A stretch of 44,220 nucleotides of DNA from Candidatus Hydrogenedentota bacterium (GTDB taxonomy: Bacteria > Hydrogenedentota > Hydrogenedentia > Hydrogenedentales > SLHB01). Position numbers and translations under genes: made by a program. Below, in pieces: positions 6,998-22,713 of this stretch. The notes under the pieces were generated by a model. It did not search any database. It saw nothing but the letters and a program-made list of their open reading frames with translations, and was not told the origin of the DNA. The stretch lies in the NCBI GenBank assembly GCA_016215105.1, contig JACRLJ010000053.1, positions 1 to 44,220 on the forward strand, in the 5' to 3' direction. Position 1 is the stretch's first letter. The number at the start of each line of letters is the position of its first letter.

Positions 6998-7717
6998 GTG
7001 AAAACGCTGGTATCGGTGGTTGTGCCGTTTTATAACGAGGAAGAGAACGTTCCCTTGCTGGCGGAGCGGGTCGACGCGGTGTTTGCTCAATTGCCGGACT
7101 ATGATTATGAGTGCCTGTTCGTAAATGACGGGAGCAAGGACGGGACGCGGGCACAACTCGATGCGCTGCAGGCGAAGAATCCGCGTGTGCGGCCCGTTCA
7201 TCTGGTAAAGAACTCGGGCCAATCGGCGGCATTGGTAGCGGGTATGCGCCGCGCCAAGGGGGACTACATCCTCACCCTCGACGGGGATTTGCAGAATGAC
7301 CCGTGCGATTTTCCGAAATTCCTCGCGCTGCTCAAGGACTACGATTGCATCTGCGGGTACAGGGCGAAGCGCCAGGACACGTGGGTGCGCAAGATGTCGA
7401 GCAAGATCGCGAACGGGGTACGGAGGAAGATACTAGATGACGGTATCCGCGACGCGGGCTGCGGGTCGAAGGGGTTCCGCCGCTGCTGCGTGAAGCACAT
7501 CATTCCATTCAATGGTGTCCATCGCTTCTTCGCAGTGATGGTGCGTAACGGAGGACTCACGCTGACGGAATGCGAAGTGACGCATCATCCGCGCCAGCAC
7601 GGCGTGTCCAAGTACGGTATCTCGAACCGGCTGTGGCGGGGGATTTACGATCTCATTGGCGTGGGCTGGCTCGCGAAGCGGTACGTGAACTTCCAGGTCG
7701 AGGGGGAGGACGACTAG
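6998..7717 (+). CDS. GT2 family glycosyltransferase, polyprenyl-phosphate sugar transferase type (ArnC/DPM1-like)
   Basis: 239 residues from GTG at 6998, chosen because AGAGG lies about 10 nt upstream and the protein begins VKTLVSVVVPFYNEEENVPL as in the family. A GT-A Rossmann core is seen: VVPFYNEEENV, CLFVNDGSKDGT, NSGQSAALVAGM and the metal-binding LTLDGDLQNDP, then DAGCGSKGFRR. Unlike GtrB or ArnC it has no C-terminal membrane helices, so it resembles soluble DPM1-type enzymes. Expected reaction: NDP-sugar plus undecaprenyl phosphate to polyprenyl-P-sugar on the cytoplasmic face. The next gene starts 2 bases after its stop, and an ArnT-like transferase follows, which fits a lipid-linked sugar donor pathway. 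Confidence 0.88.
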   Translation: MKTLVSVVVPFYNEEENVPLLAERVDAVFAQLPDYDYECLFVNDGSKDGTRAQLDALQAKNPRVRPVHLVKNSGQSAALVAGMRRAKGDYILTLDGDLQNDPCDFPKFLALLKDYDCICGYRAKRQDTWVRKMSSKIANGVRRKILDDGIRDAGCGSKGFRRCCVKHIIPFNGVHRFFAVMVRNGGLTLTECEVTHHPRQHGVSKYGISNRLWRGIYDLIGVGWLAKRYVNFQVEGEDD

Positions 7718-7718
7718 G

Positions 7719-8423
7719 GTGGACACGCTACGCGAGGAGCTCGCCCGGGAAGGGTGGGCGTGGTTTCTTTTCGGCTTGGCCGGCCAACTCACTTTTCAAG
7801 GCCGGTTCTATCTGCAATGGATCGCTTCCGAACGGAAAAAGAAGAGCGTGATTCCGGTGGCGTTCTGGTATCTGAGCTGTGTCGGGACGCTGATGCTGCT
7901 GGTGTTCGCCGTGTACACGCAGTCCCCCGTCGGCGCGCTCAGCAACGGCTTGAACATCGTAATCTACGCGCGCAACCTGGTCCACATTTGGCGCAACGCG
8001 GGGAAATTGACAAAGCAAATGCACACCGCAATACACGGGATAGTGGCGGTGATCGCGCTGGTCGCAGTGTACTTTGTCGCGCGCGTGTGGCTGCTCGAGT
8101 ACGACATCACAAAGCACGCATCCGCCGGCGAGGCCCAGAAGACCTGGTTCTGGATCGCGGTGGGCGCCACCGGAACGCTCTTGTTTGGATGCCGCTTCAT
8201 TATTCAATGGATCGCGACTGAACGCGCGCGCGCGAGTGTAATCCCGACCGCGTTCTGGTACTTCAGCGTCGTTGCGACGGTTCTGCAATTCATCGGCTAT
8301 ATTCCGCGTAAGGAATGGGTTTTTGCGCTTGGATCGGTGATGGGGATCGTGATTTACGCGCGCAACCTGTGGTTCATACATAAGCCCGGCGCCGAGGTCG
8401 ACGATCCGGAGGCAATGTCATGA
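7719..8423 (+). CDS. Tandem LAB_N-domain membrane protein, 3-1-3 helix topology
   Basis: 234 residues from GTG at 7719 with a GGAGGA site 8 nt upstream inside the previous gene. Two copies of the lipid-A-disaccharide synthase N-terminal domain (LAB_N, PF07578) are obvious: residues 27-91 (GRFYLQWIASE, SVIPVAFWYLS, NIVIYARNLVHIW) and 157-220 (CRFIIQWIATE, SVIPTAFWYFS, GIVIYARNLWFIH). Each has three membrane helices, and an extra helix (about 106-127) joins them, giving seven helices in a 3-1-3 order. No LpxB catalytic domain is present. It lies between a polyprenyl-P-sugar synthase and an ArnT-like transferase, the slot of a lipid-sugar translocase. Family call is firm; the flippase role is inference. 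Confidence 0.88.
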   Translation: MDTLREELAREGWAWFLFGLAGQLTFQGRFYLQWIASERKKKSVIPVAFWYLSCVGTLMLLVFAVYTQSPVGALSNGLNIVIYARNLVHIWRNAGKLTKQMHTAIHGIVAVIALVAVYFVARVWLLEYDITKHASAGEAQKTWFWIAVGATGTLLFGCRFIIQWIATERARASVIPTAFWYFSVVATVLQFIGYIPRKEWVFALGSVMGIVIYARNLWFIHKPGAEVDDPEAMS

Positions 8424-10294
8424 CGAGACCGATGGGACGCCCCCTTCTGGGCCTCATCGGCTTGGCGCTGCTGCTGTTTTTTGTCAACATCTGGGGCTAT
8501 GACCTGTGGCCCCCGGACGAACCCCGCTTTGGCCAAGTGGCGCGTGAGATGCTCCAATCCGGGAACTTCCTGGCTCCTCATATCAACGGCGAGCCGTACA
8601 AAGAAAAGCCCCCGCTCCTGTTTTGGGCCATCTGCTTATTCTCTCTGCCCTTTGGCGACGTGACGGAGTTCTCCGCGCGGGCGCCGTCCGCGCTGGGCGC
8701 GCTAATCACGGTTCTGTGTACGTACTTGCTGGCGCGGCGTCTGGCCAACGAACGCGTCGCCTTTTGGTCCGGCGTGATTCTATGTACCACCCTGCAATTC
8801 TGGTGGGAGGCGCGGACCGTACACACCGACATGCTGATGACGGCGGCGCTGAGCGTGTCTATGCTGGCGTTGTGGGAGTGGCGGGAGCGGCGCCACGCCG
8901 GCTGGCTGATCCTGTTCTACGGCGCAATTACCGCAGCGTTGTACGCGAAAGGTCCGCCCGCGCTGGCGTTTCCGATGCTCGCGATTGTCACGTTCTACTG
9001 GAAGCAGAAGGAAAAGCGGCGCAAGCTTCACTGGCTGTCGGGGCTGGCCGCGGCCGTTGCGCTTGTGCTGGCTTGGTACATACCGGCGCGAATGTCTCTC
9101 CCGGCGGCGGGAGGCGAAGTTGCAGGCGGTACGGGAAGCGAACTGTACCGCCAGATTATCGGTCGAGCGGTCTTGGGGAGCAGTAAGGCCCAGCCGCCGT
9201 GGTACTACGTGGAAAACCTGCCCATGTCGCTGTTCCCTTGGGTGATCTTTCTTCCGTGGACCGCGATATGGACATGGAAACGCCGGAATGAATCGCCCGA
9301 ATTGCACTACCTCTTGAGCTGGTGCGTTCCGGCGTTCATCTTCTTTTCGATTGTGATCGGGAAACGTCCGTATTACCTGCTACCCATCTATCCGGCCCTG
9401 GCCATCATTTTTGCGCGCGCAATTCTAGACTTGATGGACGAAAAACGGACAGCTTGGATTAAGTGGACGGCGGGCGTATGGGCGGCGATCCTGGCGCTAT
9501 GCGCGTTGGCGCCGTTGGCGCTCAAGTACACGGAGTATCGCGATATCGAGTTTACGCCGCTCTTGATCCTGGGCGTGATGCTCGCAGGGTTCGCAGTGAA
9601 CACCGTCCTGCGCGCGTTCCGGACGAGCGACGCGCCGGTGCCATTACACGCGCTAATCTCGGGCCATTTTACCGCATTGCTGGCGCTGACGGCCCTGATC
9701 GGGTTTCCCATGCTCAACGCGCATAAGTCGGCCCGAGCCATTTGCGAACCCTTGCGAACCTTGTCGCTGGCGAAGCAGGATTACAAGTTGTACTCCGTGG
9801 GCCTATCCCGCGAAGAATACATTTTCTACGCGCGGCACTTTCACGAGGCGGTGCTGACCGAATCGCTCGACTTACCCGCAGGACTGACGGCGAAGGAACG
9901 AAGACGAGCGGAGGAACTGCAGTACAAGACCCGCCGCGCGATCATGAAAGCCGTGGACCAGGTTCCCATTCATTCGTTTGAATCGGTCACACCCGAAGAG
10001 ATTCAGGCTTTGGACGCCAAGTTGGATGCGGCGGTAAAACTGGTTCAGGTTGATCCGAAACTTGCGGCTGATTTTGAAACCGCATTGAAAAGGGAAGTCA
10101 ACGGGTTTACCGCGAGTTTTGAGGGGCATATTCCGGCGTTTATGTTTGTACAGGAACAGGACTGGCGTTGGCTCCTTCCGCTCCACCCAGAAATGCGCGC
10201 CTACCCCGTGATCGGCAACCAATCCGTTGGCAGCCGCGAAATGCTGCTCATCGCGAATCAGGCGGGAGCGAAACTGATCACGTCAAAGAAATGA
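8420..10294 (+). CDS. ArnT-like glycosyltransferase (GT83/PMT_2, dolichyl/undecaprenyl-P-sugar dependent)
   Basis: 624 residues; its ATG overlaps the LAB_N stop by 4 bases (ATGA). The N-terminus is a membrane helix followed by LWPPDEPRFGQVAREM and EPYKEKPPLLFW, the periplasmic loop signature of ArnT/PMT enzymes, with the catalytic-type Asp-Glu in PPDEPRF. About 11-12 membrane segments run to residue ~430, and a soluble C-terminal part of roughly 190 residues follows. ArnT moves a sugar from undecaprenyl phosphate to lipid A in the periplasm; here the acceptor could be lipid A, another glycan or protein. Third gene of the operon with the GT2 and LAB_N proteins; no gene follows it closely. Confidence 0.85.
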   Translation: MTRPMGRPLLGLIGLALLLFFVNIWGYDLWPPDEPRFGQVAREMLQSGNFLAPHINGEPYKEKPPLLFWAICLFSLPFGDVTEFSARAPSALGALITVLCTYLLARRLANERVAFWSGVILCTTLQFWWEARTVHTDMLMTAALSVSMLALWEWRERRHAGWLILFYGAITAALYAKGPPALAFPMLAIVTFYWKQKEKRRKLHWLSGLAAAVALVLAWYIPARMSLPAAGGEVAGGTGSELYRQIIGRAVLGSSKAQPPWYYVENLPMSLFPWVIFLPWTAIWTWKRRNESPELHYLLSWCVPAFIFFSIVIGKRPYYLLPIYPALAIIFARAILDLMDEKRTAWIKWTAGVWAAILALCALAPLALKYTEYRDIEFTPLLILGVMLAGFAVNTVLRAFRTSDAPVPLHALISGHFTALLALTALIGFPMLNAHKSARAICEPLRTLSLAKQDYKLYSVGLSREEYIFYARHFHEAVLTESLDLPAGLTAKERRRAEELQYKTRRAIMKAVDQVPIHSFESVTPEEIQALDAKLDAAVKLVQVDPKLAADFETALKREVNGFTASFEGHIPAFMFVQEQDWRWLLPLHPEMRAYPVIGNQSVGSREMLLIANQAGAKLITSKK

Positions 10295-10332: not shown

Positions 10333-10380
10333 CGATCTGCTGGGATAAGATCGGTTAGAATACGGTCTAATGAGTAGACC
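10333..10380 (+). promoter_or_regulatory. Promoter and two inverted repeats at the HEPN/MNT operon start
   Basis: CGATCT (10333-10338) and AGATCG (10348-10353) form a perfect inverted repeat with a 9-base spacer, directly followed by a -10-like TAGAAT (10356-10361). A second perfect inverted repeat, GGTCTA (10364-10369) and TAGACC (10375-10380), brackets the five bases ATGAG that contain the start codon. No Shine-Dalgarno is visible, so translation may be near-leaderless. Either repeat could be an autoregulatory operator; the second could also fold in RNA. Confidence 0.4.
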
Positions 10381-10750
10381 TCACGAGGAATGGCTAAAGC
10401 AGTCGGCGTACGACTTGGACACTGCGGAGTTTATGTGGCGTGGTGGCAGGCATTTCTACGCCATGTTCATGTGCCATCTTTCTGTCGAAAAGGCGCTGAA
10501 GGCACTTTGGCAAGTAAGACTGGGAGAGACGCCGCCAAAGACCCACAATCTCCTATTCCTAGTCGGACGATGTGGTCTGGAGATTCCGCACGTTGTCCAT
10601 CGAATTCTGGCAGTGCTAAACGAGGCCCAAGTGACTACTAGGTATCCGCCTGACCTCGATCAGGTTAGCGCCAGCTATAACAAGAGCGCCGCACGGGATA
10701 TCTTGGATCAGGCAAAGGACGCATTGGAATGGATAAGGCAGCAGTTCTAG
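10370..10750 (+). CDS. HEPN domain protein of a HEPN/MNT toxin-antitoxin pair
   Basis: 126 residues, all-helical, with the HI0074/HEPN pattern: AMFMCHLSVEKALKALW, TPPKTHNLLFLV and TRYPPDL near residue 91. HEPN partners of minimal nucleotidyltransferases act as RNase toxins or as tRNA/RNA-binding partners. The usual R-X4-6-H catalytic motif of HepT toxins is not evident (the nearest is R24-x3-H28), so RNase activity is doubtful. The start ATG lies at the centre of an inverted repeat. The nucleotidyltransferase gene begins 22 bases before this stop, giving tight coupling. Confidence 0.85.
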   Translation: MSRPHEEWLKQSAYDLDTAEFMWRGGRHFYAMFMCHLSVEKALKALWQVRLGETPPKTHNLLFLVGRCGLEIPHVVHRILAVLNEAQVTTRYPPDLDQVSASYNKSAARDILDQAKDALEWIRQQF

Positions 10751-11049
10751 ATATAATCGAACGCTTTAGAACCGCCCTCGAGGCTCACGGCGTGCATGGC
10801 CCGAAGATAATCCTGTTTGGTTCGCACGCAACGGGCACCGCGCACGACTCCAGCGACATTGACTTGGCCGTGGTGTCCGAGGACTTTGTTGGAAAGAATC
10901 TTTGGGAACGGATTAACCTCTTGGCCGACGCGATCTGCGATGTCTTCGAGCCGATTGAGGCCATTCCTTTTTCGCCAGAAGAATGGGAAGCGGGTGACAC
11001 GATCATGGCGCAGATTGCGCGCAAAGGCGAAGTGGTGGCCGCACGATAG
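10729..11049 (+). CDS. Minimal nucleotidyltransferase (MNT) of a HEPN/MNT toxin-antitoxin pair
   Basis: 106 residues with the pol-beta nucleotidyltransferase motif G-S-X10-D-X-D: GSHATGTAHDSSDIDLAVVS, with G31, S32, D43 and D45 in place. In known type VII systems the MNT antitoxin inactivates the HEPN toxin by adding AMP to a Tyr. The third acidic residue may lie in DVFEPIEAIPF. It overlaps the HEPN gene by 22 bases in another frame. Overall size is typical for MNT antitoxins. Confidence 0.88.
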   Translation: MDKAAVLDIIERFRTALEAHGVHGPKIILFGSHATGTAHDSSDIDLAVVSEDFVGKNLWERINLLADAICDVFEPIEAIPFSPEEWEAGDTIMAQIARKGEVVAAR

Positions 11050-11123: not shown

Positions 11124-13016
11124 GTGTGCGGGATTTGTGGCGTCGCGAGAACTGGTGATCGGGGCCTGGTCTCGCTTGATCTGTTGGGCCGAATGGCGGC
11201 CACCATCGCGCATCGGGGACCCGACGACGAGGGCTTCTTCACCGACCGCTACGTGGGATTCGGGTTCCGGCGCCTTTCTATCATTGATCTTTCTCTGGGC
11301 CATCAGCCCATGTCCGACGCCGAGGAAAATGTCTGGATCGTCTTCAACGGCGAAATCTACAACTACCCGGAGTTACGCAAGGAACTGGAAGGACACGGCC
11401 ACGCCTTCCGCACCAACAGCGATACGGAAGTCATTCTTCACGGGTACAAGCAGTGGGGCAAAGGCGTCCTGACCCGTCTCAACGGCATGTTTGGATTCGC
11501 GATCTGGGACAAGCGAACCGAGCAGCTCCTAATCGCCCGCGACCGCATGGGCATCAAACTCATTTACTACGCGCAGGACAACGGAACTCTCATTTTTGGT
11601 TCCGAGATCCGGCCCATATTGGCCGCGCTGCCGTCACCGCCAGAGATGGACCCTGTAGCGCTCAACTTGTTCCTGCGCTATCGCTACACCCCGTCACCAT
11701 TGACCGTTTTCAAAGGTATCCGCAAACTCGCCCCGGGCACGTGCCTAATAGTGCGGAACGGCCGCATCGAGGTCGAGCGTTACGACACCTTCGCGCCCGA
11801 ACCGTTTAGTCCCATGCCTTCCATGGAAGACGCGGAGGAACAGCTTCTCGCGCTATACCGGCAGGCGGTAAAGCGGCAATTAATGAGTGACGTGCCGTTG
11901 GGACTGCTGCTAAGCGGCGGACTCGATTCGGGGCTGCTTCTTGGATTGATGAAGGAGTGTGGCGCTTCCTGGAACACGTATACCGTCGGATTCGGAACCA
12001 GCTTCAAGGACGACGAACTTGACGACGCAGCCGAGACGGCTCGTGTGTTAGGATCACCGAATTACGCCGTACGGCTGGATCGCGAGACGTTTGAAGCAAG
12101 CCTCTCTAAGATTGTCGCATACCTGGAAGAGCCGGTGGCGTCGCCCTCGATTGTGCCTATGTACCACGTGTGTCAACGGGCCCGCCAGGACGTGAAGGTG
12201 GCCCTGTGCGGTCAAGGCCCCGACGAACTGTTTGCGGGCTACCGTCGGCATTTGGGCGTGCGCTACGGCGCGTACTGGCGCAGTCTGCCGGAATGGGTTA
12301 GGACGCCGGCGCGCGGGGCGCTGGGGATGTTGCCGCGAAACGACGCCATACGCCGGGCCTTGTATTCGCTGGACGTGCCGGATCGCCTCCAGCGCTATCA
12401 GCAGGTCTTCTCGATCATGCGCGGCGATGTAATTGACGGTCTATTTCAGAAGGACGCGCTACCCGCGGGCGCCGGAGACGAGATTCTCGATTGCTGGGCG
12501 GACTATGCGCCGTTGATGCGGCACACGGATGAACTGGGCGGATTCAACTTCCTCGAAGTCCGCTCGTCGCTGCCGGACGAGTTGCTGATGTACGCGGATA
12601 AGTTGTCCATGGCGCACAGCCTGGAAACGCGCGTGCCGTACCTCGATCAGGACGTGGTGGAATATGCGGAGCGGCTTGATGCGTCGTTCAAGATACGCGG
12701 CTTGTCGCGCAAGTACCTTCATCGCCGGGTGTGCCGTAAGTACTTGCCCGAGGCGATTGTAAATCGCAAGAAGAAAGGTTTTGCAGTGAACGTAGTGGAC
12801 GATTGGTTTCGCGGATCGATTTCAGGCAAGCTGGAAGAGACGTTGCTGGACCCGCAGTCGCGCATGTACGCGTACATGGAACCCGGCGCCATCCGCGGGC
12901 TGGTGCGCCAGCATCTAGACGGCCAAAAGGATAACCACAAGATTCTGTTCAGTCTGGTAATGCTCGAAGAGTGGATGCGCAACTTCGCATCAAAGCCGCA
13001 GGCTGTGCAGGTATAG
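11124..13016 (+). CDS. asnB: Glutamine-hydrolysing asparagine synthase family amidotransferase
   Basis: 630 residues starting with GTG at 11124, chosen because Cys must be residue 2 (MCGICGVA) to act as the class II glutaminase nucleophile; a GAGGAG site lies 8 nt upstream. Glutaminase domain residues ~2-200 contain HRGPDDEGF, FNGEIYNY and ARDRMGIK. The synthase domain has the PP-loop LLSGGLDSGLLLG and a later GQGPDELFAGYRRH. In polysaccharide clusters this family often amidates uronic acids or other carboxylates rather than making Asn; the neighbours here (methyltransferase, glycosyltransferases) favour that. First gene of a long plus-strand glycan operon. Similar also to exosortase-associated amidotransferases, but no exosortase is in the window. 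Confidence 0.88.
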   Translation: MCGICGVARTGDRGLVSLDLLGRMAATIAHRGPDDEGFFTDRYVGFGFRRLSIIDLSLGHQPMSDAEENVWIVFNGEIYNYPELRKELEGHGHAFRTNSDTEVILHGYKQWGKGVLTRLNGMFGFAIWDKRTEQLLIARDRMGIKLIYYAQDNGTLIFGSEIRPILAALPSPPEMDPVALNLFLRYRYTPSPLTVFKGIRKLAPGTCLIVRNGRIEVERYDTFAPEPFSPMPSMEDAEEQLLALYRQAVKRQLMSDVPLGLLLSGGLDSGLLLGLMKECGASWNTYTVGFGTSFKDDELDDAAETARVLGSPNYAVRLDRETFEASLSKIVAYLEEPVASPSIVPMYHVCQRARQDVKVALCGQGPDELFAGYRRHLGVRYGAYWRSLPEWVRTPARGALGMLPRNDAIRRALYSLDVPDRLQRYQQVFSIMRGDVIDGLFQKDALPAGAGDEILDCWADYAPLMRHTDELGGFNFLEVRSSLPDELLMYADKLSMAHSLETRVPYLDQDVVEYAERLDASFKIRGLSRKYLHRRVCRKYLPEAIVNRKKKGFAVNVVDDWFRGSISGKLEETLLDPQSRMYAYMEPGAIRGLVRQHLDGQKDNHKILFSLVMLEEWMRNFASKPQAVQV

Positions 13017-13024
13017 GAAGACCC

Positions 13025-13945
13025 ATGACGGAAAACATTGGCGAGGTCCGGGAGTTTTGGGACAGCCATCCCTGCCAAAGTGATCTATCGGACGCAAACG
13101 ATCGCCGGATCTATTTCGACGAAATTGAGCGAAAGCGCTATGCCCATGAGCCGCACATCCCGGTCATCGCGCAGTTTGAAAACTACCACGGAAAAGACGT
13201 GTTGGAGATTGGTTGCGGCATTTCGACCGATGGCCTGCAATTTGCGCGAGGCGGCGCATGCTATACCGGCTATGACCTCACCCCGGCGGCCATAGCGACC
13301 GCGAAGGAGCGATTTGCCTTGTACGGCGCAGCAGGACGCTTTGAAAACGTTAATTGCGAACACATGCCTGCTCCGGACGAGAGCTTCGACCACATCTATA
13401 GCTTTGGCGTCATTCACCACTCGCCCAATACAGAAGCCATCGTCGCAGAAATGTACCGCGTGCTTCGGCCCGGGGGAACATTCTGTGTGATGATCTACAA
13501 TCGGTCGTCGATCAATTACTATGTCGAGATCATGTTCCTCCGGAGACTGTTCCGGTACATGTTGCTGCCTTCGTTCATGCCCAAATTGCTTAGCCGCATC
13601 ACGGGCTTTCCCGAATGGAAGCTGCAAGGTCACCGCGACGTGATGCTGAGCCAGGGCGCACTCACGAAAGAACAATGGATCAGCATCAATACCGACGGGC
13701 CCGACTGCCCCTTGGCCAAGGTCTATAATCGGCGCGAGGCCGGGGAACTCTTTCACGCCTTCCAGGACGTGCGTATGGAGGCGCACTTCTTTGACCGTAC
13801 CCATTGGCCGGTGATCGGAAAGCGGTTGCCGGATGGCTTTTGCCAATGGCTCGGTCGCCGCTGGGGATGGCACCGCGTCGTCTACGGAACCAAGCCTTTG
13901 ACGGGCGCCGCGTCCATCGGGCGTAGTAGCGCAGGCCGCTCGTGA
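13025..13945 (+). CDS. Class I SAM-dependent methyltransferase
   Basis: 306 residues from ATG at 13025, preceded by AGGAAG; an upstream ATG in frame would overlap asnB and add 18 unrelated residues. SAM-binding motif I is DVLEIGCGISTDGLQFA, motif II GYDLTPAAI, and the post-motif HMPAPDESFDHIYSFGVIHH and VLRPGGTFCVMIYN are typical. The C-terminal part (after about residue 160) has a hydrophobic stretch, FLRRLFRYMLLPSFM, found in methyltransferases of glycan clusters. Substrate unknown, probably a sugar or glycan intermediate. Its stop overlaps the next gene's GTG by 4 bases. Confidence 0.85.
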   Translation: MTENIGEVREFWDSHPCQSDLSDANDRRIYFDEIERKRYAHEPHIPVIAQFENYHGKDVLEIGCGISTDGLQFARGGACYTGYDLTPAAIATAKERFALYGAAGRFENVNCEHMPAPDESFDHIYSFGVIHHSPNTEAIVAEMYRVLRPGGTFCVMIYNRSSINYYVEIMFLRRLFRYMLLPSFMPKLLSRITGFPEWKLQGHRDVMLSQGALTKEQWISINTDGPDCPLAKVYNRREAGELFHAFQDVRMEAHFFDRTHWPVIGKRLPDGFCQWLGRRWGWHRVVYGTKPLTGAASIGRSSAGRS

Positions 13946-15159
13946 TACGGACTTCAAGGCCGATTCGCAGTTGCATGGTAGTCTTTTCGTACTACCCCGC
14001 CGATCCGCGGCCACGGCGGGAAGCGGAAGCCTTGGTGGACGCCGGCATGGCGGTAGACCTAATTTGTCTGCGTAACGAGGGGGAACTGTCGCACGAAGTC
14101 GTAAACGGTGTAGGCGTGTACCGTTTGCCCATACAGCGCAAGCGCGCGGGTAAAGTGCGCTATCTGTGGGAATACGCGCTCTTCATTCTGCTTGCATTTT
14201 TCAAATTGTCCGCTCTGCATCTGCGCCGTCGTTACGACGTTGCACACGTTCACAACATGCCGGACGTGTTGGTGTTCAGCGCGCTGCTGCCGCGTCTCAC
14301 GGGCGCGAAAGTCATTCTCGACCTTCATGATCCGATGCCGGAAGTCTACATGACGAAGTACGATATCGGCGCGGACCATCCCGTTATTCGGACGCTGCGG
14401 CTATTCGAGAAGTGGAGTATCGCCTTCTCGCACCTCGTGCTGACGCCGAATATCGCGTTTTGCGATTTGTTTGCGGCGCGCAGTTGCGAGTCCTCCAAGG
14501 TGCATGTGATCATGAATTCTCCCGACCTGCGCATCTTCGGCGGAAGATCGCATGCGCCGTCGAGCGCCGCCGCGGGCGCGCAGTTCGTCGTCATGTTTCA
14601 CGGTACGATTGTGGAGCGTCACGGGCTGGACACCGCGCTCGAGGCCGCGGCAAAACTGCGCAACGCGATACCCGAATTGCGCTTTGAAGTATACGGCGAA
14701 GGGGACTTCGTCGAGCGATTTCAGGAAATCGTACGTGAATTGAAACTCGAAGACATCGTTCATTACCACGGACGCGTGTCTTTGGAAAAGATCGCTTCGG
14801 CGATTCCGTCCATCAATGTCGGACTGGTGCCGAACAAACGGAGCGTTTTCACGGACATCAATTTGCCGACCCGCCTGTTCGAGTACTTGTGTATGGGAAA
14901 GCCTGTAATCGCTCCCAAGACCAAAGGTATCCTGGACTATTTCACTGAAGACGCTCTCCCCTATTTCGACGCCGGAGATGTGGATAGTTTGGCGGCGGTA
15001 ATTCAGGACTTACACGATCACCCGGATCGCGTCAAGAGCTACCTCGAACGTGGTACCGCCATCTATGAAGCTCACCGGTGGGATGTGCAGCGGGAAGAAC
15101 TAATCGCGCTGGTGGCTGCACTGGCGGTGGGTCCGAAGATGTCCTCGGGACCGCAGTGA
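13942..15159 (+). CDS. GT4 family glycosyltransferase
   Basis: 405 residues from GTG at 13942 (GTGA overlap with the methyltransferase stop). A GT-B fold: N-terminal VVFSYYPADPRPRREAEAL and DVAHVHNMPDVLVFSALL, a membrane-associating helix around residues 70-90, and C-terminal domain beginning VVMFHGTIVERHGLDTALEA. The donor-binding region has NLPTRLFEYLCMGKPVIAP, in which the second Glu of the classic E-X7-E pattern is weak. GT4 enzymes are retaining transferases that use NDP-sugars; acceptor is probably the growing lipid-linked glycan on the cytoplasmic face. Translationally coupled in the operon. Confidence 0.87.
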   Translation: MIRTSRPIRSCMVVFSYYPADPRPRREAEALVDAGMAVDLICLRNEGELSHEVVNGVGVYRLPIQRKRAGKVRYLWEYALFILLAFFKLSALHLRRRYDVAHVHNMPDVLVFSALLPRLTGAKVILDLHDPMPEVYMTKYDIGADHPVIRTLRLFEKWSIAFSHLVLTPNIAFCDLFAARSCESSKVHVIMNSPDLRIFGGRSHAPSSAAAGAQFVVMFHGTIVERHGLDTALEAAAKLRNAIPELRFEVYGEGDFVERFQEIVRELKLEDIVHYHGRVSLEKIASAIPSINVGLVPNKRSVFTDINLPTRLFEYLCMGKPVIAPKTKGILDYFTEDALPYFDAGDVDSLAAVIQDLHDHPDRVKSYLERGTAIYEAHRWDVQREELIALVAALAVGPKMSSGPQ

Positions 15160-15163
15160 CGTC

Positions 15164-16069
15164 ATGTCCAATCTCACGTACGTAGTAATAACGCCGGCCC
15201 GAAATGAAGCGGACAGCATCGAGCGCACGCTTCAATCCATGACCGCGCAAACGGTCGCGCCGCTACGGTGGGTGGTGGTGAGCGACGCTTCCACGGACGG
15301 CACGGACGACTTGGTCCGTGGCTACGCAGAACGTTTCGATTGGATCAGGCTGCTGCGCTTGGAAGGTGAGGCAAACCGCAATTTCGGGGCCAAGGTCCGC
15401 GCGTTCAAGGCGGGCTATGATTTGGTGAAGGATCTCGCGTTCGATGTTATCGCGAACGTCGACGCCGACGTTTCGTTTGAACCCGACCTGTTTGCGTTTC
15501 TTCTCGATCGGTTCGCGGAAGCGTCCGATCTGGGCGTGGCGGGCGTGCCTATGGTGGAACGCGGCCACGACGCCGTGAATGACGGCCTGTTCAATCCCGA
15601 GGACGTGTTTGGCGCGTGCCAGCTTTTCCGGCGTCAGTGCTATCTTGACACAGGGGGGTATCAGGCGATTCCGTGCGGCGGGATCGACTTTGTCGCGGTG
15701 CGAACGGCGCGGATGCGAGGCTGGCGAACCCAATCGTTTCTTGAAAAGCGCTTCCACCACCACCACGTCATGGGCGCCGCCGGAACGAGCGTGTTGGGCG
15801 CGCGGTACAAGTACGGGCTACGCGACTACTATTTTGGCAACGATCCATTGTGGCAAGTGTTTCGCACCGCCTATCAGTTTACGCGCAAACCCGTGGGTCT
15901 CGGCGGCCTGTGGCTCTTGGCGGGATACCTGTCCGGCGTCGTGAAACGTCTCGAAAGGCCGGTGTCAGCAGAGTTCATCGCCTTTCACCGGCAGGACCAG
16001 CGGAGACGATTATGGCGCGTCTTGCGAAAACTCGCAGGTATTCGTGAATCGGAGGGGAAGAAGGCATGA
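15164..16069 (+). CDS. GT2 family glycosyltransferase
   Basis: 301 residues with a GT-A core: YVVITPARNEADSIERTLQS, VVVSDASTDGTDDL, a long NFGAKVRAFKAGYD segment, and the metal-binding DVIANVDADVSF. Further down, FGACQLFRRQCYLDTGGY and IDFVAVRTARMRGWRT resemble the acceptor/active-site region, and HHHHVMGAAG is a His-rich loop. The C-terminal LGGLWLLAGYLSGVV may be a membrane helix. Start ATG at 15164, 4 bases after the previous stop, lacks a strong ribosome site and probably depends on coupling. An inverting sugar transferase of the glycan cluster; specificity unknown. Confidence 0.87.
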   Translation: MSNLTYVVITPARNEADSIERTLQSMTAQTVAPLRWVVVSDASTDGTDDLVRGYAERFDWIRLLRLEGEANRNFGAKVRAFKAGYDLVKDLAFDVIANVDADVSFEPDLFAFLLDRFAEASDLGVAGVPMVERGHDAVNDGLFNPEDVFGACQLFRRQCYLDTGGYQAIPCGGIDFVAVRTARMRGWRTQSFLEKRFHHHHVMGAAGTSVLGARYKYGLRDYYFGNDPLWQVFRTAYQFTRKPVGLGGLWLLAGYLSGVVKRLERPVSAEFIAFHRQDQRRRLWRVLRKLAGIRESEGKKA

Positions 16070-17277
16070 CCGAGCAGCGGACGGCACAGGTGAGGACAGC
16101 GGTGGACCGCTTTGTTCATTGGCTGGACGCCTTTGGCGAAACGTCGCAGGATCAGCAGGACTTCCTCGCCTGTCCTTACGGGCGCTGGGCGAAGGAGCTT
16201 TATTACCAGCGTCCAGTGGTGGGCAAATTCTTTGTGGCGCCGTTGATATTCTGCGAAGCGTTCGCGCCGTCTACGCGCGGCCTATTTCTCTCTCGCAGCC
16301 GCCTGCCCATCGCGGACGCGCACTTTGCGATGGGGTACGCTTTCTTGCACCGCGTGACCGGTGACTCGGCGCATTTCGACCGAATGGCCCATTTCCTGGA
16401 GGTATTGCGGCAAACGCGTTGCCCGGGGTTCGAGCATTATTGCTGGGGATATCCGTTCGATTGGCAGACGGTGTGGGGGACCTTTCCGAAGGGTACGCCG
16501 ATGATTACGACCACCCCATACTGCTACGACGCGTTTGCCGACGCGTACGAGATCGACCCGCGTCCGGAATGGCGCGCCGTTATGCGTTCCATCGCCGAAC
16601 ATGCTCTGCGCGATCTCAACGATGTGGAATTGGCGCCGGGAGTATATGCGGCGTCATATACGCCGTTAGACAAGCGCCGCGTCGTAAACGCCAACGGTTA
16701 TCGCGCGCGGACGCTGGCCGCCGCGGCGCGTGATTTCAACGAAAAGGAGTATTGGCGCGTGGCCGAGCGCAACGTGAACTTCGTGCTGCAATCGCAACAG
16801 GCGGACGGATCGTGGCTCTACGCCATGGACGGTGAAGGCAAGTTTATCGACAATTTCCACACCTGCTTTGTGCTCAAGCACCTCGCACGTGTCGAGGAAC
16901 TGACCGGCCACGCGGGATGCCACGAAGCCATCGAACGCGGCGCCCGGTACTATCTCGACCACCTGCTGGACTCGGACGGATTACCCATACCCTTTGCCAA
17001 GGCGCCGCGCTTGGTGATGTACAGGCGCGACCTGTACGATTATGCGGAATGCGTCAACCTTGCGCTCCTGTTGCGCGAGCGGATGCCGGAGTGGAACCGC
17101 GTGCTCGATACCGTGCTGGCGGATTTGTTCGCGCGCTGGCAAAAGCCCGACGGATCGTTCCGTTCACGGCAATTGCGATTCGGATGGGACAACTGTCCCA
17201 TGCACCGCTGGGCGCAGTCCCAGTTGTTCCGAAGCTTGACCCGGCTGCTTTGGCTTGCCGCGGACGACGGCTCTTGA
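16066..17277 (+). CDS. Alpha/alpha-barrel-like protein of a polysaccharide cluster, function unknown
   Basis: 403 residues; ATGA overlap with the previous gene and a strong GGAGGGGAAGAAGG site. No signal peptide or membrane helix. The repeating helical pattern with W, Y and G-rich turns (ADAHFAMGYAFLHRVTG, HYCWGYPFDWQTVWG, ANGYRARTLAAAARDF, QQADGSWLYAMDGEG, KPDGSFRSRQLRFGWDN) fits an (alpha/alpha)6 toroid such as six-hairpin glycosidases, epimerases or terpenoid-cyclase-like folds. The two DGS(W/F) turns recall QADGSW-type toroid repeats. No catalytic pair can be assigned. The soluble cytoplasmic prediction and position between sugar transferases suggest it acts on a glycan or sugar intermediate. 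Confidence 0.7.
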   Translation: MTEQRTAQVRTAVDRFVHWLDAFGETSQDQQDFLACPYGRWAKELYYQRPVVGKFFVAPLIFCEAFAPSTRGLFLSRSRLPIADAHFAMGYAFLHRVTGDSAHFDRMAHFLEVLRQTRCPGFEHYCWGYPFDWQTVWGTFPKGTPMITTTPYCYDAFADAYEIDPRPEWRAVMRSIAEHALRDLNDVELAPGVYAASYTPLDKRRVVNANGYRARTLAAAARDFNEKEYWRVAERNVNFVLQSQQADGSWLYAMDGEGKFIDNFHTCFVLKHLARVEELTGHAGCHEAIERGARYYLDHLLDSDGLPIPFAKAPRLVMYRRDLYDYAECVNLALLLRERMPEWNRVLDTVLADLFARWQKPDGSFRSRQLRFGWDNCPMHRWAQSQLFRSLTRLLWLAADDGS

Positions 17278-17324
17278 ATCGCTGAGCCTATGGCGCGAAA
17301 TGACCATTTCTAGACAAGGACGCT

Positions 17325-18509
17325 ATGACCAAGGGCAATGTTGAGATTAGACAGATCGCGGTCAAGGACATCTACCGCTTTGCCTGTGAAGCGTTTCGCT
17401 GCGAACTCGGCGCCGGTGAAGTGAATCCTATCCCCAAGAGTCGGGCATCGGCGTGGTCTCAGAACCCCAATGCCGATCCGGACGATCCGGCAATGCTTGC
17501 GGCGTACATCAACGGAGTCTGTGTAGGCTATATAGGTCTTATGCCGGTAATACTGTCGCACGCGGCGGAAAGGGAGAAAGTGTTCTGCCTTTCAACGTGG
17601 TTTGTATCCCCCGCATCGCGGGGCTCCGGCGCCGGCGCGCTTCTGCTGACGCGCGCGATGAGCCTTCACGAAAACCTCTTCTCTATCGCCCCTACGCCAG
17701 AAGCCGAGGAATTGTACCGGGCGATTCGTTTCAAGGAGTTGGGTCCTATGCGCCACTTCATGCTCTACTTAGGCGCGCTGAATGTGCTTGGGTTGCCATT
17801 TGATATTCTCAAGCGCGTTCTGGCGCGGCGCGGACTCTCAGTACGCAGCGTCGAGATAGCTAGCAGAATCTTCCGGCGGATTCTTTATCCAGCGTTCCGC
17901 TTGGCAGCCTATCGGATGATCCGGGCGCCGTTTGCAAAGTTCCTTTGTGATACGACTTACTCTGAAGTCGACCGTATTGATGAGACCCTGTTCAACGCGG
18001 ACGATTCCGCGGCGCCGGGCTCCGCTCGATTCTTTCGCGGATCCGATGCCATAAACTGGATGCTTCGCGCCCCGTGGATTCTTGAAGACACTACCCAGGC
18101 AACGCCCGGCTATGAGTTTAGCGATGTTCGCCCGCGGTTCAGATATATTGCGCTTAAGATTACTCCCGATGGCGGAAACGAAAGGCCAGGATTCCTTGTC
18201 TTGTCGGTCTCTACGCGCACGGACGGTGAAACTACGCTGAAGGTTCTTGATTATTCTCTAAATTGCGATTACCGCCACGAACGCTTGGCCGCGGTCGCGC
18301 TGGAATACGCTGTCCGTTTTCGTGCAGACCGCGTTCTGGCGCCGCGACCCATTGGTGATACACTGCGGATTTCCGGAGTGGCGCGAAGGATATTGCTGAA
18401 ACGTGAGCACCGGTACTTCGCGTATTGCGGAAAACGGAAGAGTTTCTTCGCAGATCATCTGGGCGCAATCGAGACGGGGCTCTGCGACGGAGACGCGCCA
18501 TTTATCTAG
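17325..18509 (+). CDS. GNAT family N-acetyltransferase domain protein
   Basis: 394 residues, ATG at 17325 after AAGGA. The N-terminal ~150 residues resemble a GNAT fold: CVGYIGLMPVILS, CLSTWFVSPASRGSGAGALL (the acetyl-CoA V-x-P-x-x-R-G-x-G-x-G/A loop) and APTPEAEELYRAIRFKELG. The remaining 240 residues hold a helical linker and a second alpha/beta region (FRYIALKITPDG, RPGFLVLSVST), possibly a second GNAT-like half as in FemX-type double-GNAT proteins. Expected to transfer an acyl group to an amine on a sugar or peptide. Forms part of the glycan operon, followed closely by a polysaccharide deacetylase. Confidence 0.75.
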   Translation: MTKGNVEIRQIAVKDIYRFACEAFRCELGAGEVNPIPKSRASAWSQNPNADPDDPAMLAAYINGVCVGYIGLMPVILSHAAEREKVFCLSTWFVSPASRGSGAGALLLTRAMSLHENLFSIAPTPEAEELYRAIRFKELGPMRHFMLYLGALNVLGLPFDILKRVLARRGLSVRSVEIASRIFRRILYPAFRLAAYRMIRAPFAKFLCDTTYSEVDRIDETLFNADDSAAPGSARFFRGSDAINWMLRAPWILEDTTQATPGYEFSDVRPRFRYIALKITPDGGNERPGFLVLSVSTRTDGETTLKVLDYSLNCDYRHERLAAVALEYAVRFRADRVLAPRPIGDTLRISGVARRILLKREHRYFAYCGKRKSFFADHLGAIETGLCDGDAPFI

Positions 18510-18543
18510 GGCAAACGAGATCGGCCAAACCGGGACGAAGGAT

Positions 18544-19584
18544 ATGCCGTTGAGAGAAATCGCACGGGACGCGATTCTATCGTGGACGCCGCTGGCGCCG
18601 TTGCAAGCGATGGTGAAACGCGATGTTGTCGGCGTCAATTATCATCTGGTGAGCGCCGAGCCAAGTCCTCTTGTCAGTCCACTATTCTCGTTTAAGACTC
18701 CCGCACAATTCGAATCCGATCTGCATTTTCTGAAGAGCCACTACTCCATGGTCGGTTACGCCGATACTGCGGCGCAGATCCTCGGCGGACGATCCATCCT
18801 TCCTTCGCGCGCAGCCCTCTTGACCTTCGACGATGGATTTGCCGAATGTCACACAACCGTTCGGCCCTTGCTGCTCAAGCATAAGATCCCGGCGGTGTTC
18901 TTTGTCATTACGGACGCCCTGAATAACCGTTTTCTGCCCTATCGCAACCGCGTAGCGCTGTGCTTGGATCGGTTACGGCGCGCGACGGACGATGAATTTG
19001 GCGGCTTCGCCTCTGAGTTGAAGGCGCTTGCGCCACAAGCCCGTTCTTCACGCGAAGCTGCGGAGAAATGGGTCCGTTCGTTGACGAACCGGGACACTGC
19101 CGTCTTGGACGCGATCTTCCGTTTGCTCAATATTGACCCACAGGCATTTCTGACTGTGCGAAAACCGTTCTTGAGCACGGATCAAATTCTAGAGTTGGTC
19201 CGAGACGGTTTCACCATTGGAGCACACAGCGTTACGCACACGGATTTCTCGCTCCTGGACGAGCCGGCGATTGAGCGTGAAATCGTCGAGTCATGCGCGG
19301 TTGTATGCGCGTTGACCGGTGCGAGTCACGCGCCGTTTGCGTTTCCCTTTAATGGCAACAGCCTAAAGCGTCTCTTTTTGGCCGATGTTCGGAAGAGAAA
19401 TCCGCACGTCGGGTTGTACTTCGACAACTGCGGGTTCCCGCTGGATCACGAATGGGTTGTCGGACGCATGACATGCGACTTGCCCGGCGGCTGCAGTGCG
19501 GGGCATTCGAATCTCGGCCGATGGTTGAAACGCGCTTACGCGCGCGGGTTGGTGAGTCAGATCACGCGGAAACAACGTCCATGA
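18544..19584 (+). CDS. Polysaccharide deacetylase (NodB/CE4 family)
   Basis: About 346 residues. The NodB motifs are intact: LTFDDGF (Asp96, Asp97) and the metal-binding HSVTH (His228, His232). No signal peptide is visible, so it may act in the cytoplasm on a lipid-linked intermediate. The start is uncertain: ATG at 18544 has AAGG only 2 nt upstream, and TTG at 18550 would give better spacing; longer in-frame starts overlap the GNAT gene in another frame and are less likely. The insert between the motifs (residues ~125-210) is longer than in the minimal domain. Removes N-acetyl from amino sugars, which would expose an amine for later acylation. Confidence 0.85.
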   Translation: MPLREIARDAILSWTPLAPLQAMVKRDVVGVNYHLVSAEPSPLVSPLFSFKTPAQFESDLHFLKSHYSMVGYADTAAQILGGRSILPSRAALLTFDDGFAECHTTVRPLLLKHKIPAVFFVITDALNNRFLPYRNRVALCLDRLRRATDDEFGGFASELKALAPQARSSREAAEKWVRSLTNRDTAVLDAIFRLLNIDPQAFLTVRKPFLSTDQILELVRDGFTIGAHSVTHTDFSLLDEPAIEREIVESCAVVCALTGASHAPFAFPFNGNSLKRLFLADVRKRNPHVGLYFDNCGFPLDHEWVVGRMTCDLPGGCSAGHSNLGRWLKRAYARGLVSQITRKQRP

Positions 19585-19611
19585 TGGACGACAGGGAGCA
19601 CACGACCAACT

Positions 19612-20379
19612 ATGGCGGATGAATCGTTGAAATGCCGTCGCTTTGAGGGCAAAGTCGCGCTCGTGACGGGCGCCTCATCAGGTATCGGTGAAGCGACAGC
19701 GCGCCGATTGGCGGGCGAGGGCGCCGTCGTCGTCCTAGTGGCGCGTCGGCGCACGCTGCTTGAGGCGGTCTCTAATGACGTTACCGCCGCCGGGGGAACT
19801 GCGCTGCCGATCGACGCCGATGTGACTGACTCCGAACAGATGTCAGCCGCTGTGCAGGCCACACTTGAAGAATTCGGCCATTTGGATGTGTTGACCAATT
19901 GTGCTGGAAAAGAACTGTTCAAGCCTTTGCCCATGATCAAGCCCGAACAATTGCGAGAGCTTCTTGAAGTTAATGTGGAAGGAGTGGTCAACACGTGCCG
20001 GGCCGCATATCGGAAGATGAGCGACGGGGGCGCGATCGTCACCGTGGCTTCCGCGAGCGCCTTTGTGGGAAGCGCTGCGTCTGCGGCGTACGCGCTGACG
20101 AAAGGCGGACTGATTTCGTTTTCAAGATCCCTGGCTGCGGAGCTGGCGCCCCGCCGCATTCGCGTCAATTCGGTGTCGCCGGGCATGGTCAAGACCGACC
20201 TGTCTGACCGGATGTTCGCCAAGATGACGCCGGAGCAGGTGGAAAAACTTCGCGCGAATCACCTGTTGGACTTTGGGCGTCCGGCGGACGTTGCGGCTGC
20301 AATCGCATTCCTGGCTTCGGACGACGCGGGCTGGATCACGGGCACAGACTTGGTGGTGGACGGAGGTCTCTCGTGCTAA
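19612..20379 (+). CDS. Short-chain dehydrogenase/reductase, FabG-like
   Basis: 255 residues with a classical SDR layout: the NAD(P) motif LVTGASSGIGEATA (19-31), a NCAG box (TNCAG, 95-99), catalytic Ser near 147-149 (VASASAF), Tyr160 and Lys164 in YALTKGG, and a terminal GTDLVVDGG. An Arg pair (VARRR) after beta2 suggests NADPH. Closest by pattern to 3-oxoacyl-ACP reductases, but sugar reductases look alike. It begins a block with an acyltransferase, KAS III and ACP, so reduction of a 3-ketoacyl-ACP is a good hypothesis. ATG at 19612; the AGGGAG site is rather far upstream. Confidence 0.88.
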   Translation: MADESLKCRRFEGKVALVTGASSGIGEATARRLAGEGAVVVLVARRRTLLEAVSNDVTAAGGTALPIDADVTDSEQMSAAVQATLEEFGHLDVLTNCAGKELFKPLPMIKPEQLRELLEVNVEGVVNTCRAAYRKMSDGGAIVTVASASAFVGSAASAAYALTKGGLISFSRSLAAELAPRRIRVNSVSPGMVKTDLSDRMFAKMTPEQVEKLRANHLLDFGRPADVAAAIAFLASDDAGWITGTDLVVDGGLSC

Positions 20380-20435
20380 TATCGTAAATCGACAGCATCT
20401 TGGCTGATGGCAGGAAAGAGACGGACGGCAAAGCT

Positions 20436-21101
20436 ATGGCGAAACGCCTGGTAATTTATGGTGGAGGGGACATTGCGCGTGTCGCGTCAGTCTATTTTCG
20501 TAAGGACAGCCCTTACGAGGTCGCGGCGTTTACCGTCCCCGGGAAAGACGTGCGCCTCGCTTCCATGTTGGGCATTCCGATAGTACCATTTGAAGAAATC
20601 GAAGATCGCTATCCCGCGTCAGATTACACGATGTTCGTGGCGACGGGATTCGCGCGCGTCAACGCGGAACGCGCGGAAATCTATGAAACATGCAAGTCCA
20701 AAGGGTATGAATTGGCCACCTACGTAAGCTCCAAAGCGATTCACTTTGATGAGTTCGAGATTGGTGACAATTGTCTGGTCGCGGAGGGCAATGTGATTCA
20801 GCCCTTCGCGAAAATTGGCAACAACGTCATTCTGTGGAGCGGCAACTTCATCGGTCACAATTCTCAGATCGGCGACCATTGTTTTGTTACGTCCCATGCG
20901 GTACTATCCGGCGGCGTTCAGCTTGGACCGTATTGTTTTGTGGGCGTGAACGCCTGTTTTCGCGACTATGTGCGCATTGCCCCCAAGTGCGTGATCGGAG
21001 CCGGCACGGTCATTCTGCGCAATACCAAACCCGGCGGCGTGTACGCAGTGCGGAGTTCTCCGCCCTTGCCGTTGGACAGCGAGGACTTGCGAATGAAGTG
21101 A
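20436..21101 (+). CDS. NeuD/PglD-like sugar acyltransferase, left-handed beta-helix
   Basis: 221 residues from ATG at 20436, chosen because families of this type begin with KRLVIYGGGDIARV; an upstream TTG at 20400 would add 12 residues. No strong ribosome site for either. The N-terminal Rossmann-like part (GGG) binds the UDP-amino-sugar in PglD. The C-terminal hexapeptide repeats are clear: AEGNVIQPFAKIGNNVILW, NSQIGDHCFVTSHAVLSGG, LGPYCFVGVNACF and CVIGAGTVIL. His in TSHAVLSGG sits where the catalytic base of PglD/NeuD is found. Family members acetylate sugar amines or hydroxyls from acetyl-CoA; the adjoining ACP suggests an acyl-ACP donor here. Confidence 0.85.
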   Translation: MAKRLVIYGGGDIARVASVYFRKDSPYEVAAFTVPGKDVRLASMLGIPIVPFEEIEDRYPASDYTMFVATGFARVNAERAEIYETCKSKGYELATYVSSKAIHFDEFEIGDNCLVAEGNVIQPFAKIGNNVILWSGNFIGHNSQIGDHCFVTSHAVLSGGVQLGPYCFVGVNACFRDYVRIAPKCVIGAGTVILRNTKPGGVYAVRSSPPLPLDSEDLRMK

Positions 21102-21155
21102 GGCACGGAACTGCGTTCGCTGCCCGCGTGATTGCTAAAGAGAGGTGTCAGGCGT

Positions 21156-22184
21156 ATGCCACAACCCAAAGCGGTAGTCAAAGGAATCGCCACCCATTTG
21201 CCGGAGCGGCGGCTGACCAACGAGCAGCTTGCAACGGAGTACGGCGATTGGACTGCGGAAAAAATCGAGCAGAAGACCGGCATTGTCGTGCGCGCGGTTG
21301 CCGGGCCCGAGGAGTGTGCGTCCGATCTCGGCTATGCGGCGGCTCAGAGACTATTTGAATCCGGTGTTTGCGCTCCGGCGGACGTTGACTTTCTCTTGTT
21401 CTGTACGCAGAGCCCGGACTACTTCCTTCCGACTACGGCGTGTTTGCTCCAAGACCGGTTGGGGTTGCCCCGCGGCGCCGGCGCCCTCGACTTCAACTTG
21501 GGATGCTCCGGCTTCGTATACGGTCTGTCCATGGCGAAAGGGCTCATCGAAAGCGGCCAAGCCAAGAACGTGCTGCTGATTACCTCGGAAACCTATTCGA
21601 AGTACATTCACCCGAAAGATCGCAGTGCGCGGACGATCTTCAGCGACGGCGCCGCCGCGACATGGATCACCGGTTGCGATTCGAACGAGGAATTGCTCGG
21701 ACCGTTTGTGTACGGCACGGATGGCCGCGGCGGCTGCAATCTGATTGTGCCCGCCGGCGCCCTGCGTACGCCCCATAGCCCCGCCACCGCGCGCGAGGAA
21801 ACCGACGAATCAGGCAATGTCCGGGCCAAGGACAACTTGTATATGAATGGCCCGGAGATATTTAACTTCACGCTCGAGGCGGTACACTTGGCAGTGCGCG
21901 AATTGGTAGCCAAGTGCGGGCGTACGATAGCCGACGTGGACTACGTGGTGCCTCACCAGGCGAACCGGTTCATGCTGGATCATCTTCGCAGAAAGAGCAA
22001 AATTCCCGCGGAGAAATTCTGCGTCAACGTCGAACACTTCGGGAATACGGTTTCGAGCACTATCCCGATGGCGCTGGAACGGGCGATGCAGGATGGCGCC
22101 GTAGGCAAAGGCGCCAACGTGATGATTATCGGGTTTGGCGTCGGGTATTCGTGGTCGGCGGGCATGATGCGCCTCGCGTTTTGA
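21156..22184 (+). CDS. 3-oxoacyl-ACP synthase III family protein (KAS III, FabH-like)
   Basis: 342 residues from ATG at 21156, preceded by AGAGAGGTG; an earlier ATG adds 8 unrelated residues. The catalytic triad of KAS III is intact: Cys117 in FNLGCSGFVYG, His267 in VVPHQANRFM, and Asn297 in HFGNTVSSTIP. Ends in the usual GFGVGYSWSAGMM. KAS III condenses acetyl-CoA with malonyl-ACP to give acetoacetyl-ACP; some relatives are acyltransferases. It is in a glycan cluster, not a fatty-acid operon, next to a dedicated ACP and FabG-like reductase. Confidence 0.9.
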   Translation: MPQPKAVVKGIATHLPERRLTNEQLATEYGDWTAEKIEQKTGIVVRAVAGPEECASDLGYAAAQRLFESGVCAPADVDFLLFCTQSPDYFLPTTACLLQDRLGLPRGAGALDFNLGCSGFVYGLSMAKGLIESGQAKNVLLITSETYSKYIHPKDRSARTIFSDGAAATWITGCDSNEELLGPFVYGTDGRGGCNLIVPAGALRTPHSPATAREETDESGNVRAKDNLYMNGPEIFNFTLEAVHLAVRELVAKCGRTIADVDYVVPHQANRFMLDHLRRKSKIPAEKFCVNVEHFGNTVSSTIPMALERAMQDGAVGKGANVMIIGFGVGYSWSAGMMRLAF

Positions 22185-22272
22185 CCGCATCCCGATGTGT
22201 CCGAGTTTGGTCCGGTGACGCGTTTTACGTATCATATGCTGTCGTCGGCTTGAAGTGGTCAAGGAGTGTGAA

Positions 22273-22515: not shown

Positions 22516-22713
22516 CCGGCCCAGCGGGCAGCGTGCGTGTTCGGCGAAGGACGCCGTAATTCGCCGTCGCCACCGCATTAATCGCGCACTTGCTCGAACT
22601 CGACGCTACGGCTCGAGGCGCGGCAAGCGAGACGGCGCACTTTCATTCCGCGTGAGGAACAGACATCGCATTTCGCACAAGGTTTCCGCGCGAACTACAG
22701 TGTATCTTCCGGG

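Follow-up and report, generated by a model that had tools for sequence, protein, structure and literature searches.

Three closely packed genes at positions 6998-10294 of the window (the whole 44,220-nucleotide stretch analysed here, contig JACRLJ010000053.1 of a Candidatus Hydrogenedentota bacterium), all on the + strand, encode an ArnC-like glycosyltransferase of family GT2, a membrane protein made of two LAB_N domains in tandem and an ArnT-like glycosyltransferase of family GT83. We consider it somewhat probable that the tandem LAB_N protein, a candidate polyprenyl-phosphate-sugar flippase, works with the two enzymes in a three-component extracytoplasmic glycosylation system. Across many phyla LAB_N is placed between an enzyme that loads a sugar and an enzyme that uses it, and it is therefore probably the missing transporter or the membrane partner in such systems. 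Specifically, the GT2 would load polyprenyl phosphate with a sugar taken from a nucleotide sugar at the cytoplasmic face, LAB_N would bring this lipid-linked sugar across to the periplasmic side, and the ArnT-like GT83 would pass the sugar to an acceptor in the envelope. The LAB_N step would be carried out by one chain of three, one and three helices (3-1-3) in the window organism, and presumably by a dimer of chains with three transmembrane (TM) helices in organisms that have single LAB_N proteins. LAB_N would substitute for ArnE/F or GtrA, and might in addition keep a GT2 devoid of TM helices at the membrane. The features of the locus are:

6998..7717, + strand: GT2, polyprenyl-phosphate sugar synthase of the ArnC/GtrB/DPMS type, 239 aa (PF00535, 120.6 bits; match to 9hwj)
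7719..8423, + strand: tandem LAB_N membrane protein, 234 aa, candidate polyprenyl-phosphate-sugar flippase (two PF07578 copies; AlphaFold2 model)
7773..7982, + strand: LAB_N copy 1 (TM1-3), 90.6 bits, motif R29 Q33 W34 E38 P46 F49 W50 S53 R85 N86
8013..8114, + strand: linking TM helix 4, residues 99-132 (AlphaFold2 helix; strongest hydrophobic segment 108-126)
8160..8372, + strand: LAB_N copy 2 (TM5-7), 80.3 bits, motif R159 Q163 W164 E168 P176 F179 W180 S183 R215 N216
8420..10294, + strand: GT83/GT39 ArnT-like membrane glycosyltransferase, 624 aa (PF13231/PF02366; NCBIfam ArnT, 151 bits; 5ezm)

A single base separates the GT2 gene from the LAB_N gene, which in turn overlaps the GT83 gene by 4 bases; the Pfam names of the three products are, in order, Glycos_transf_2, LAB_N (twice) and PMT/PMT_2. 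The tandem protein matches the LAB_N family (PF07578) at 159.1 bits against a cut-off of 26.7, and LAB_N is the only Pfam family in this open reading frame (ORF), in which the LpxB catalytic domain (PF02684) was not found. It is the sole LAB_N protein of the 6.7 Mb genome, whose LpxB is encoded on another contig (C124) and carries no LAB_N. In NCBIfam the whole tandem aligns to positions 1-216 of PRK01021, a model of LpxB, so that an LpxB preceded by two LAB_N copies is already represented there. The AlphaFold2 model of the tandem has seven main helices in 3-1-3 order (pLDDT 92.4, pTM 0.87) and that of one half has three (pLDDT 91.2). The arrangement given in a preliminary description made from the sequence alone, namely a GT2, two LAB_N copies offset by about 130 residues with a linking helix in a 3-1-3 topology, and an ArnT-like GT83, is therefore borne out by the ORFs, by Pfam and by the AlphaFold2 helix at residues 99-132.

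Both halves of the tandem carry the same motif. Across N halves, C halves and single LAB_N proteins alike, conservation reaches 98-100% at R29, Q33, W34, E38, P46, F49, W50, S53, R85 and N86 and 97-100% at Y83; such retention is as expected if two equivalent units formed one functional centre. The loop between TM1 and TM2 is richer in positive charge (a mean of 2.6 K/R vs 1.0), suggesting a cytoplasmic location for this loop and for the C-terminus. Trees separate the N halves of Hydrogenedentota from the C halves as two groups, which points to one old duplication maintained throughout the phylum. A single origin of the tandem form in Hydrogenedentota and Bacteroidota and separate origins were not distinguished by the approximately unbiased test (p 0.26 and 0.41).

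The closest relative of the GT2 in the Protein Data Bank (PDB) is ArnC (9hwj; E 4.6e-34, residues 5-220); the GtrB-type enzyme sll0501 of a cyanobacterium ranks next, ahead of dolichol-phosphate mannose synthase. Its GT-A domain is closest to that of ArnC, but the C-terminal membrane helices of ArnC are missing: no TM helix follows residue 200 in the window protein of 239 aa, whereas the solved ArnC chain has 322 aa. Among the GT2 orthologues partnering LAB_N, 87/92 likewise have no strongly hydrophobic helix past residue 200, and the orthologues stop a median of 11 residues past the catalytic domain. This absent tail had not been considered in the preliminary description. For the GT83, the sole solved relative is ArnT (5ezm; E 5.7e-20, aligned residues 12-495); its 151 bits against the NCBIfam ArnT equivalog lie below the cut-off of 567, and it would be expected to use a polyprenyl-phosphate sugar. 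Because the closest solved relatives are ArnC and ArnT, the aminoarabinose pathway is a sound comparison as far as the two flanking enzymes go.

A survey for conservation of the gene order, which had been suggested at the outset, found the linkage far beyond the window. The named collection, searched by LAB_N similarity alone, yielded 80 loci with 81 LAB_N genes, 64 of which are immediately preceded by an ArnC-type GT2; the background rate of ArnC-type GT2 is 65 in the 1346 ORFs of at least 200 aa in LAB_N loci. A GT83 lies directly downstream of 33/81, all 33 of which also have the GT2, and therefore a synthase, a small membrane protein and a GT-C transferase are encoded together both here and at those loci. 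Most LAB_N proteins of the collection are single chains of about 90-125 residues. The pairing of GT2 and LAB_N is seen in Proteobacteria, Planctomycetes, Nitrospirae and other groups, as well as in Fusobacteria and Paenibacillus. Examples from plasmid records include Ilyobacter (GT2-LAB_N-GT39-GT39, beside a two-component system), Azospirillum (GT2-LAB_N-GT39), Paracoccus (in the order LAB_N-GT39-GT2) and Cetobacterium (GT2-LAB_N-epimerase-UDP-glucose dehydrogenase-GT39). In the Gram-positive Paenibacillus cellulosilyticus the genes are a UDP-glucose dehydrogenase, an epimerase, a GT2 and LAB_N, with no GT83 detected in the 10 kb stretch, and a Phocaeicola locus holds an epimerase beside a GT83, a GT2 and a tandem LAB_N. 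Since a dehydrogenase and an epimerase recur, the donor at those loci may be a uronic acid or a pentose, which gives nothing firm for the sugar of the window.

Some LAB_N loci deviate from this picture or carry additional features. Two-component regulators flank LAB_N loci of Fusobacteriota, Paracoccus and Hymenobacter (L216, L217, L218, L220), recalling a regulated arn-type operon. In Dyella nitratireducens (L145:7983-8551) two single LAB_N genes adjoin each other in different frames, and a GT2 of the ArnC type was not detected in the fetched neighbourhood. LAB_N without a directly adjoining GT2 or GT83 occurs at L147, L171, L180 (WWE3) and at L114 and L152, in candidate division WWE3 and some marine metagenome-assembled genomes. 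A seemingly split pair in Hymenobacter sp. HDW8, recorded as two RefSeq genes, is an interrupted tandem gene, since the close relative H. radiodurans has the gene uninterrupted (loci compared: L217:4608-5276 and L223:3608-4276); being one gene with an in-frame stop, it is not evidence for a split LAB_N. No LAB_N match was found in phage records, and one viral contig has a partial LAB_N at the contig end.

Within the phylum, 68 Hydrogenedentota genomes were surveyed, 38 of them good, from assemblies that are incomplete; the near relatives retrieved from the named collection carry the label of this phylum. The tandem LAB_N gene is present in 62/68 (36/38 of the good ones) and is thus not a chance reading frame. 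A GT2 orthologue was found in 57 genomes at E 1e-40, or in 53/68 after four that, on our reading of the table, hold weaker paralogues only are subtracted, and GT83 in 56/68. On the same reading, the six genomes that lack LAB_N include three (G018, G061, G062) in which the GT2 orthologue and GT83 are missing as well, while a few genomes hold LAB_N without the others (G012, G024, G065). Co-occurrence of the three genes in the phylum is therefore strong but not strict. Physical linkage is looser: out of 68 LAB_N genes, 31 have the GT2 directly upstream and 20 have the GT83 directly downstream, some being truncated at contig ends. Where LAB_N is unlinked, the GT2 and GT83 genes often adjoin each other elsewhere (e.g. 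G013 C41, G014 C40, G034 C41), and the genes that flank an unlinked LAB_N form a heterogeneous set, with no partner shared across the phylum.

A flippase of the ArnE/F or GtrA type that always accompanies the three genes had been named as the finding that would speak against the proposal, and no such companion emerged. ArnE (NF011625) is above its cut-off in 0/68 genomes of the phylum, the ArnF model not having been searched genome-wide, and weak ArnE/SMR-like matches occur in 9/68, with three such matches in this genome. GtrA is found in 22/68 (13/38 of the good genomes), away from the trio and mostly in ORFs of 345-440 aa. The LAB_N protein itself has no match to the ArnE/SMR/EamA family in Pfam or NCBIfam and none to GtrA (PF04138) in Pfam, and the locus holds no conserved alternative flippase. 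A Wzx-like protein is encoded at 25670-27139, about 15 kb downstream of the trio and in a separate polysaccharide cluster. RgtF, followed up as a lead from the literature, is a GalA transferase and was set aside.

The preliminary description had further related LAB_N to the SWEET transporters, and by Pfam and Foldseek ranking SWEET is indeed the closest relative of LAB_N. The tandem LAB_N of Phocaeicola (Bacteroidota) passes the cut-off of the SWEET family PF03083 (30.0 vs 23.7 bits). Of 73 LAB_N members, 21 match PF03083 (best E 2.9e-4), which makes it the family matched second most often. In one alphaproteobacterial genome (L212), a protein matched by the PF03083 model (E 9.7e-4) is in turn a LAB_N protein. 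In Foldseek searches of the PDB, the first match of the whole model is AtSWEET13 (E 0.098, probability 0.80), and the six best matches of the half model are all semiSWEETs (probability 0.85-0.96, E about 0.4-0.7); a search of the PDB with a sequence profile found no relative. Since the number of helices is odd, the halves of the tandem would be parallel, and the protein would then have the 3-1-3 topology with two parallel halves that is expected of a SWEET. One study, which does not mention LAB_N, groups GtrA and SWEETs in the TOG superfamily (PMC7176098), and the yeast PQ-loop protein Any1 scrambles phospholipids in vitro (PMC11893163); together they make a SWEET-like protein that moves lipids plausible. 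More tentatively, LAB_N may represent a widespread, unrecognised family of SWEET-related polyprenyl-phosphate-sugar flippases. Most bacteria would then use a dimer of 3-TM chains, Hydrogenedentota and Bacteroidota a duplicated 3-1-3 chain, and the name ‘lipid A biosynthesis N-terminal domain’ would reflect a side branch of the family.

A number of results weigh against LAB_N as a SWEET-like flippase. The LAB_N protein of the window has no PF03083 match up to E 10. AtSWEET13 superposes poorly on the whole model (TM-score 0.24, 16.8 A rmsd), the half model reaches TM-scores of about 0.5 against semiSWEETs (rmsd 6.5-8.7 A), and the hhalign comparison with 29 semiSWEETs (E 0.0015) is only narrowly better than block-shuffled controls (E 0.0036). 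Remote kinship between LAB_N and SWEET is therefore likely, while a SWEET-like fold is not established; the idea of a fused semiSWEET-like pair acting as a flippase is partly supported, by the topology, the remote kinship, the linkage and the lack of a constant ArnE or GtrA companion. LAB_N was also detected without GT2 or GT83 in some genomes of the phylum (e.g. G024, G065), although the assemblies are incomplete. Finally, LAB_N is linked more tightly to GT2 (64/81) than to GT83 (33/81), nearly all partner GT2s lack a TM tail, as expected if LAB_N is a partner of GT2, and in Chlamydiaceae LAB_N is fused to LpxB (PMC3937554), which also fits an anchor.

These last three points favour the most serious alternative, which we nevertheless regard as unlikely: that LAB_N is a membrane anchor or activator, supplying the absent TM part of the GT2 in the manner of Dpm2/Dpm3 or of the membrane domains of DPM synthases, and transports nothing. 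Because the GT2 has no ArnC-like TM tail, LAB_N may indeed instead, or also, be its membrane partner, and an anchor would keep soluble glycosyltransferases, here the GT2 and in Chlamydiaceae LpxB, at the membrane. However, LAB_N also stands beside long ArnC-like GT2s that have a hydrophobic tail of their own, in Massilia (L112, L117) and Noviherbaspirillum (L148), with two hydrophobic segments in L117 and L148 and one in L112 at the same threshold. Moreover, an anchor has no need of R, Q, E and R-N conserved at about 100% in both halves, and it would leave the system without a linked flippase. The two roles may be combined in one obligate complex, in which LAB_N would bind the GT2, take the lipid-linked sugar directly and move or present it to the GT83, so that flipping could not be measured without the partners. 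The evidence for a transporter and for an anchor would then count together, and the Pfam family of GtrA, named GtrA_DPMS_TM, does unite flippase candidates with membrane domains of synthases, but we find this arrangement improbable, as no fusion of GT2 and LAB_N was confirmed and the apparent case at L174 probably results from a frameshift.

The sugar may alternatively be carried by an exporter encoded apart from the trio, for instance the Wzx-like protein about 15 kb downstream. For this to be the whole explanation, a Wzx-like, SMR-like or EamA transporter would export the lipid-linked sugar and LAB_N would do another job, e.g. carrier recycling; the weak ArnE/SMR-like matches mentioned above and the MATE-family flippase of an analogous pentofuranose system (PMC11127046) agree with it, but none of the candidates is either linked to or co-conserved with the trio, which makes this reading very improbable. 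A lipid A-specific role is unlikely, because GT2 and LAB_N are also paired in the Gram-positive Paenibacillus. That LAB_N serves lipid A disaccharide synthesis, with its neighbours being incidental, is scarcely credible: the Pfam and RefSeq names, the Chlamydiales cases in which LAB_N is fused to lpxB or lies near it (PMC3937554) and the coverage of the tandem by PRK01021 would agree, but the LpxB of this genome lies apart and has no LAB_N, and the GT2 neighbourhood is conserved across phyla, a context that is strongly against such a role.

Membrane crossing of lipid-linked single sugars is poorly settled, and a 2024 paper states that the exporters proposed for the known systems have no direct evidence of flippase activity (PMC11127046). 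Separate LAB_N proteins, not part of LpxB, are already known (PMC3937554), and RefSeq records name the stand-alone form ‘lipid-A-disaccharide synthase N-terminal domain-containing protein’. A literature search, in which coverage of subscription journals was thin, found no proposal of LAB_N as a flippase, and the transporter family would be new if flipping activity were proved. If the flippase proposal is true, (i) a misnamed domain of several phyla, including a Gram-positive, gains a function, (ii) the SWEET group gains a bacterial lipid-flipping branch, in line with the yeast PQ-loop scramblase (PMC11893163) and the proposed kinship of GtrA and SWEET (PMC7176098), and (iii) the many genes under the RefSeq label above need re-annotation. 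Should LAB_N prove to be an anchor, its role would still be new.

Outside the trio, a HEPN protein and an MNT-type nucleotidyltransferase, a pair resembling a type VII toxin-antitoxin, are encoded at 10370-11049, directly 3′ of the GT83 gene. The polysaccharide cluster at 11124-27139 comprises several glycosyltransferases, a deacetylase, a KAS III-like protein and the Wzx-like flippase, as well as a relative of the XrtA/PEP-CTERM-type amidotransferase (497 bits, under the cut-off of that model).

Several known systems can be compared with the trio. In the Arn pathway (ArnC, ArnE/ArnF and ArnT; L-Ara4N, 4-amino-4-deoxy-L-arabinose, on lipid A), ArnC and ArnT are the closest solved relatives of the flanking proteins, and other LAB_N operons share with it two-component regulators, UDP-glucose dehydrogenase and epimerases; however, no ArnE is above the cut-off in the phylum, no arnA/B/D genes were seen at the locus, and the GT2 of the window is devoid of the membrane tail of ArnC. 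O-antigen glucosylation by GtrA, GtrB and Gtr (PF04138; TCDB LST 2.A.129) likewise relies on three components, one of them a small membrane protein next to a GT2, and GtrA has been linked to SWEETs (PMC7176098), but the LAB_N protein does not match PF04138, and the GtrA proteins of the phylum (22/68 genomes, mostly ORFs of 345-440 aa) are encoded elsewhere. SWEETs and semiSWEETs (PF03083) resemble LAB_N in having single 3-TM and tandem 3-1-3 forms, in the one tandem LAB_N over the Pfam cut-off and in providing the best Foldseek matches; they differ in that LAB_N has an R/E/R-N motif and QW in place of PQ, superposes poorly and would be expected to carry a lipid-linked sugar rather than the free sugar of SWEETs. 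The LAB_N of chlamydial LpxB (PRK01021) is matched by the tandem over the first 216 positions of the model, and a separate LAB_N gene exists in other Chlamydiales (PMC3937554), whereas the LAB_N of the window is neither fused nor linked to lpxB. Finally, the three-component pentofuranose systems, which use GT136 and a MATE-family flippase (PMC11127046), employ exporter and transferase families that differ from those of the trio, but share with the system proposed here a lipid-linked donor, a dedicated exporter and a GT-C transferase.

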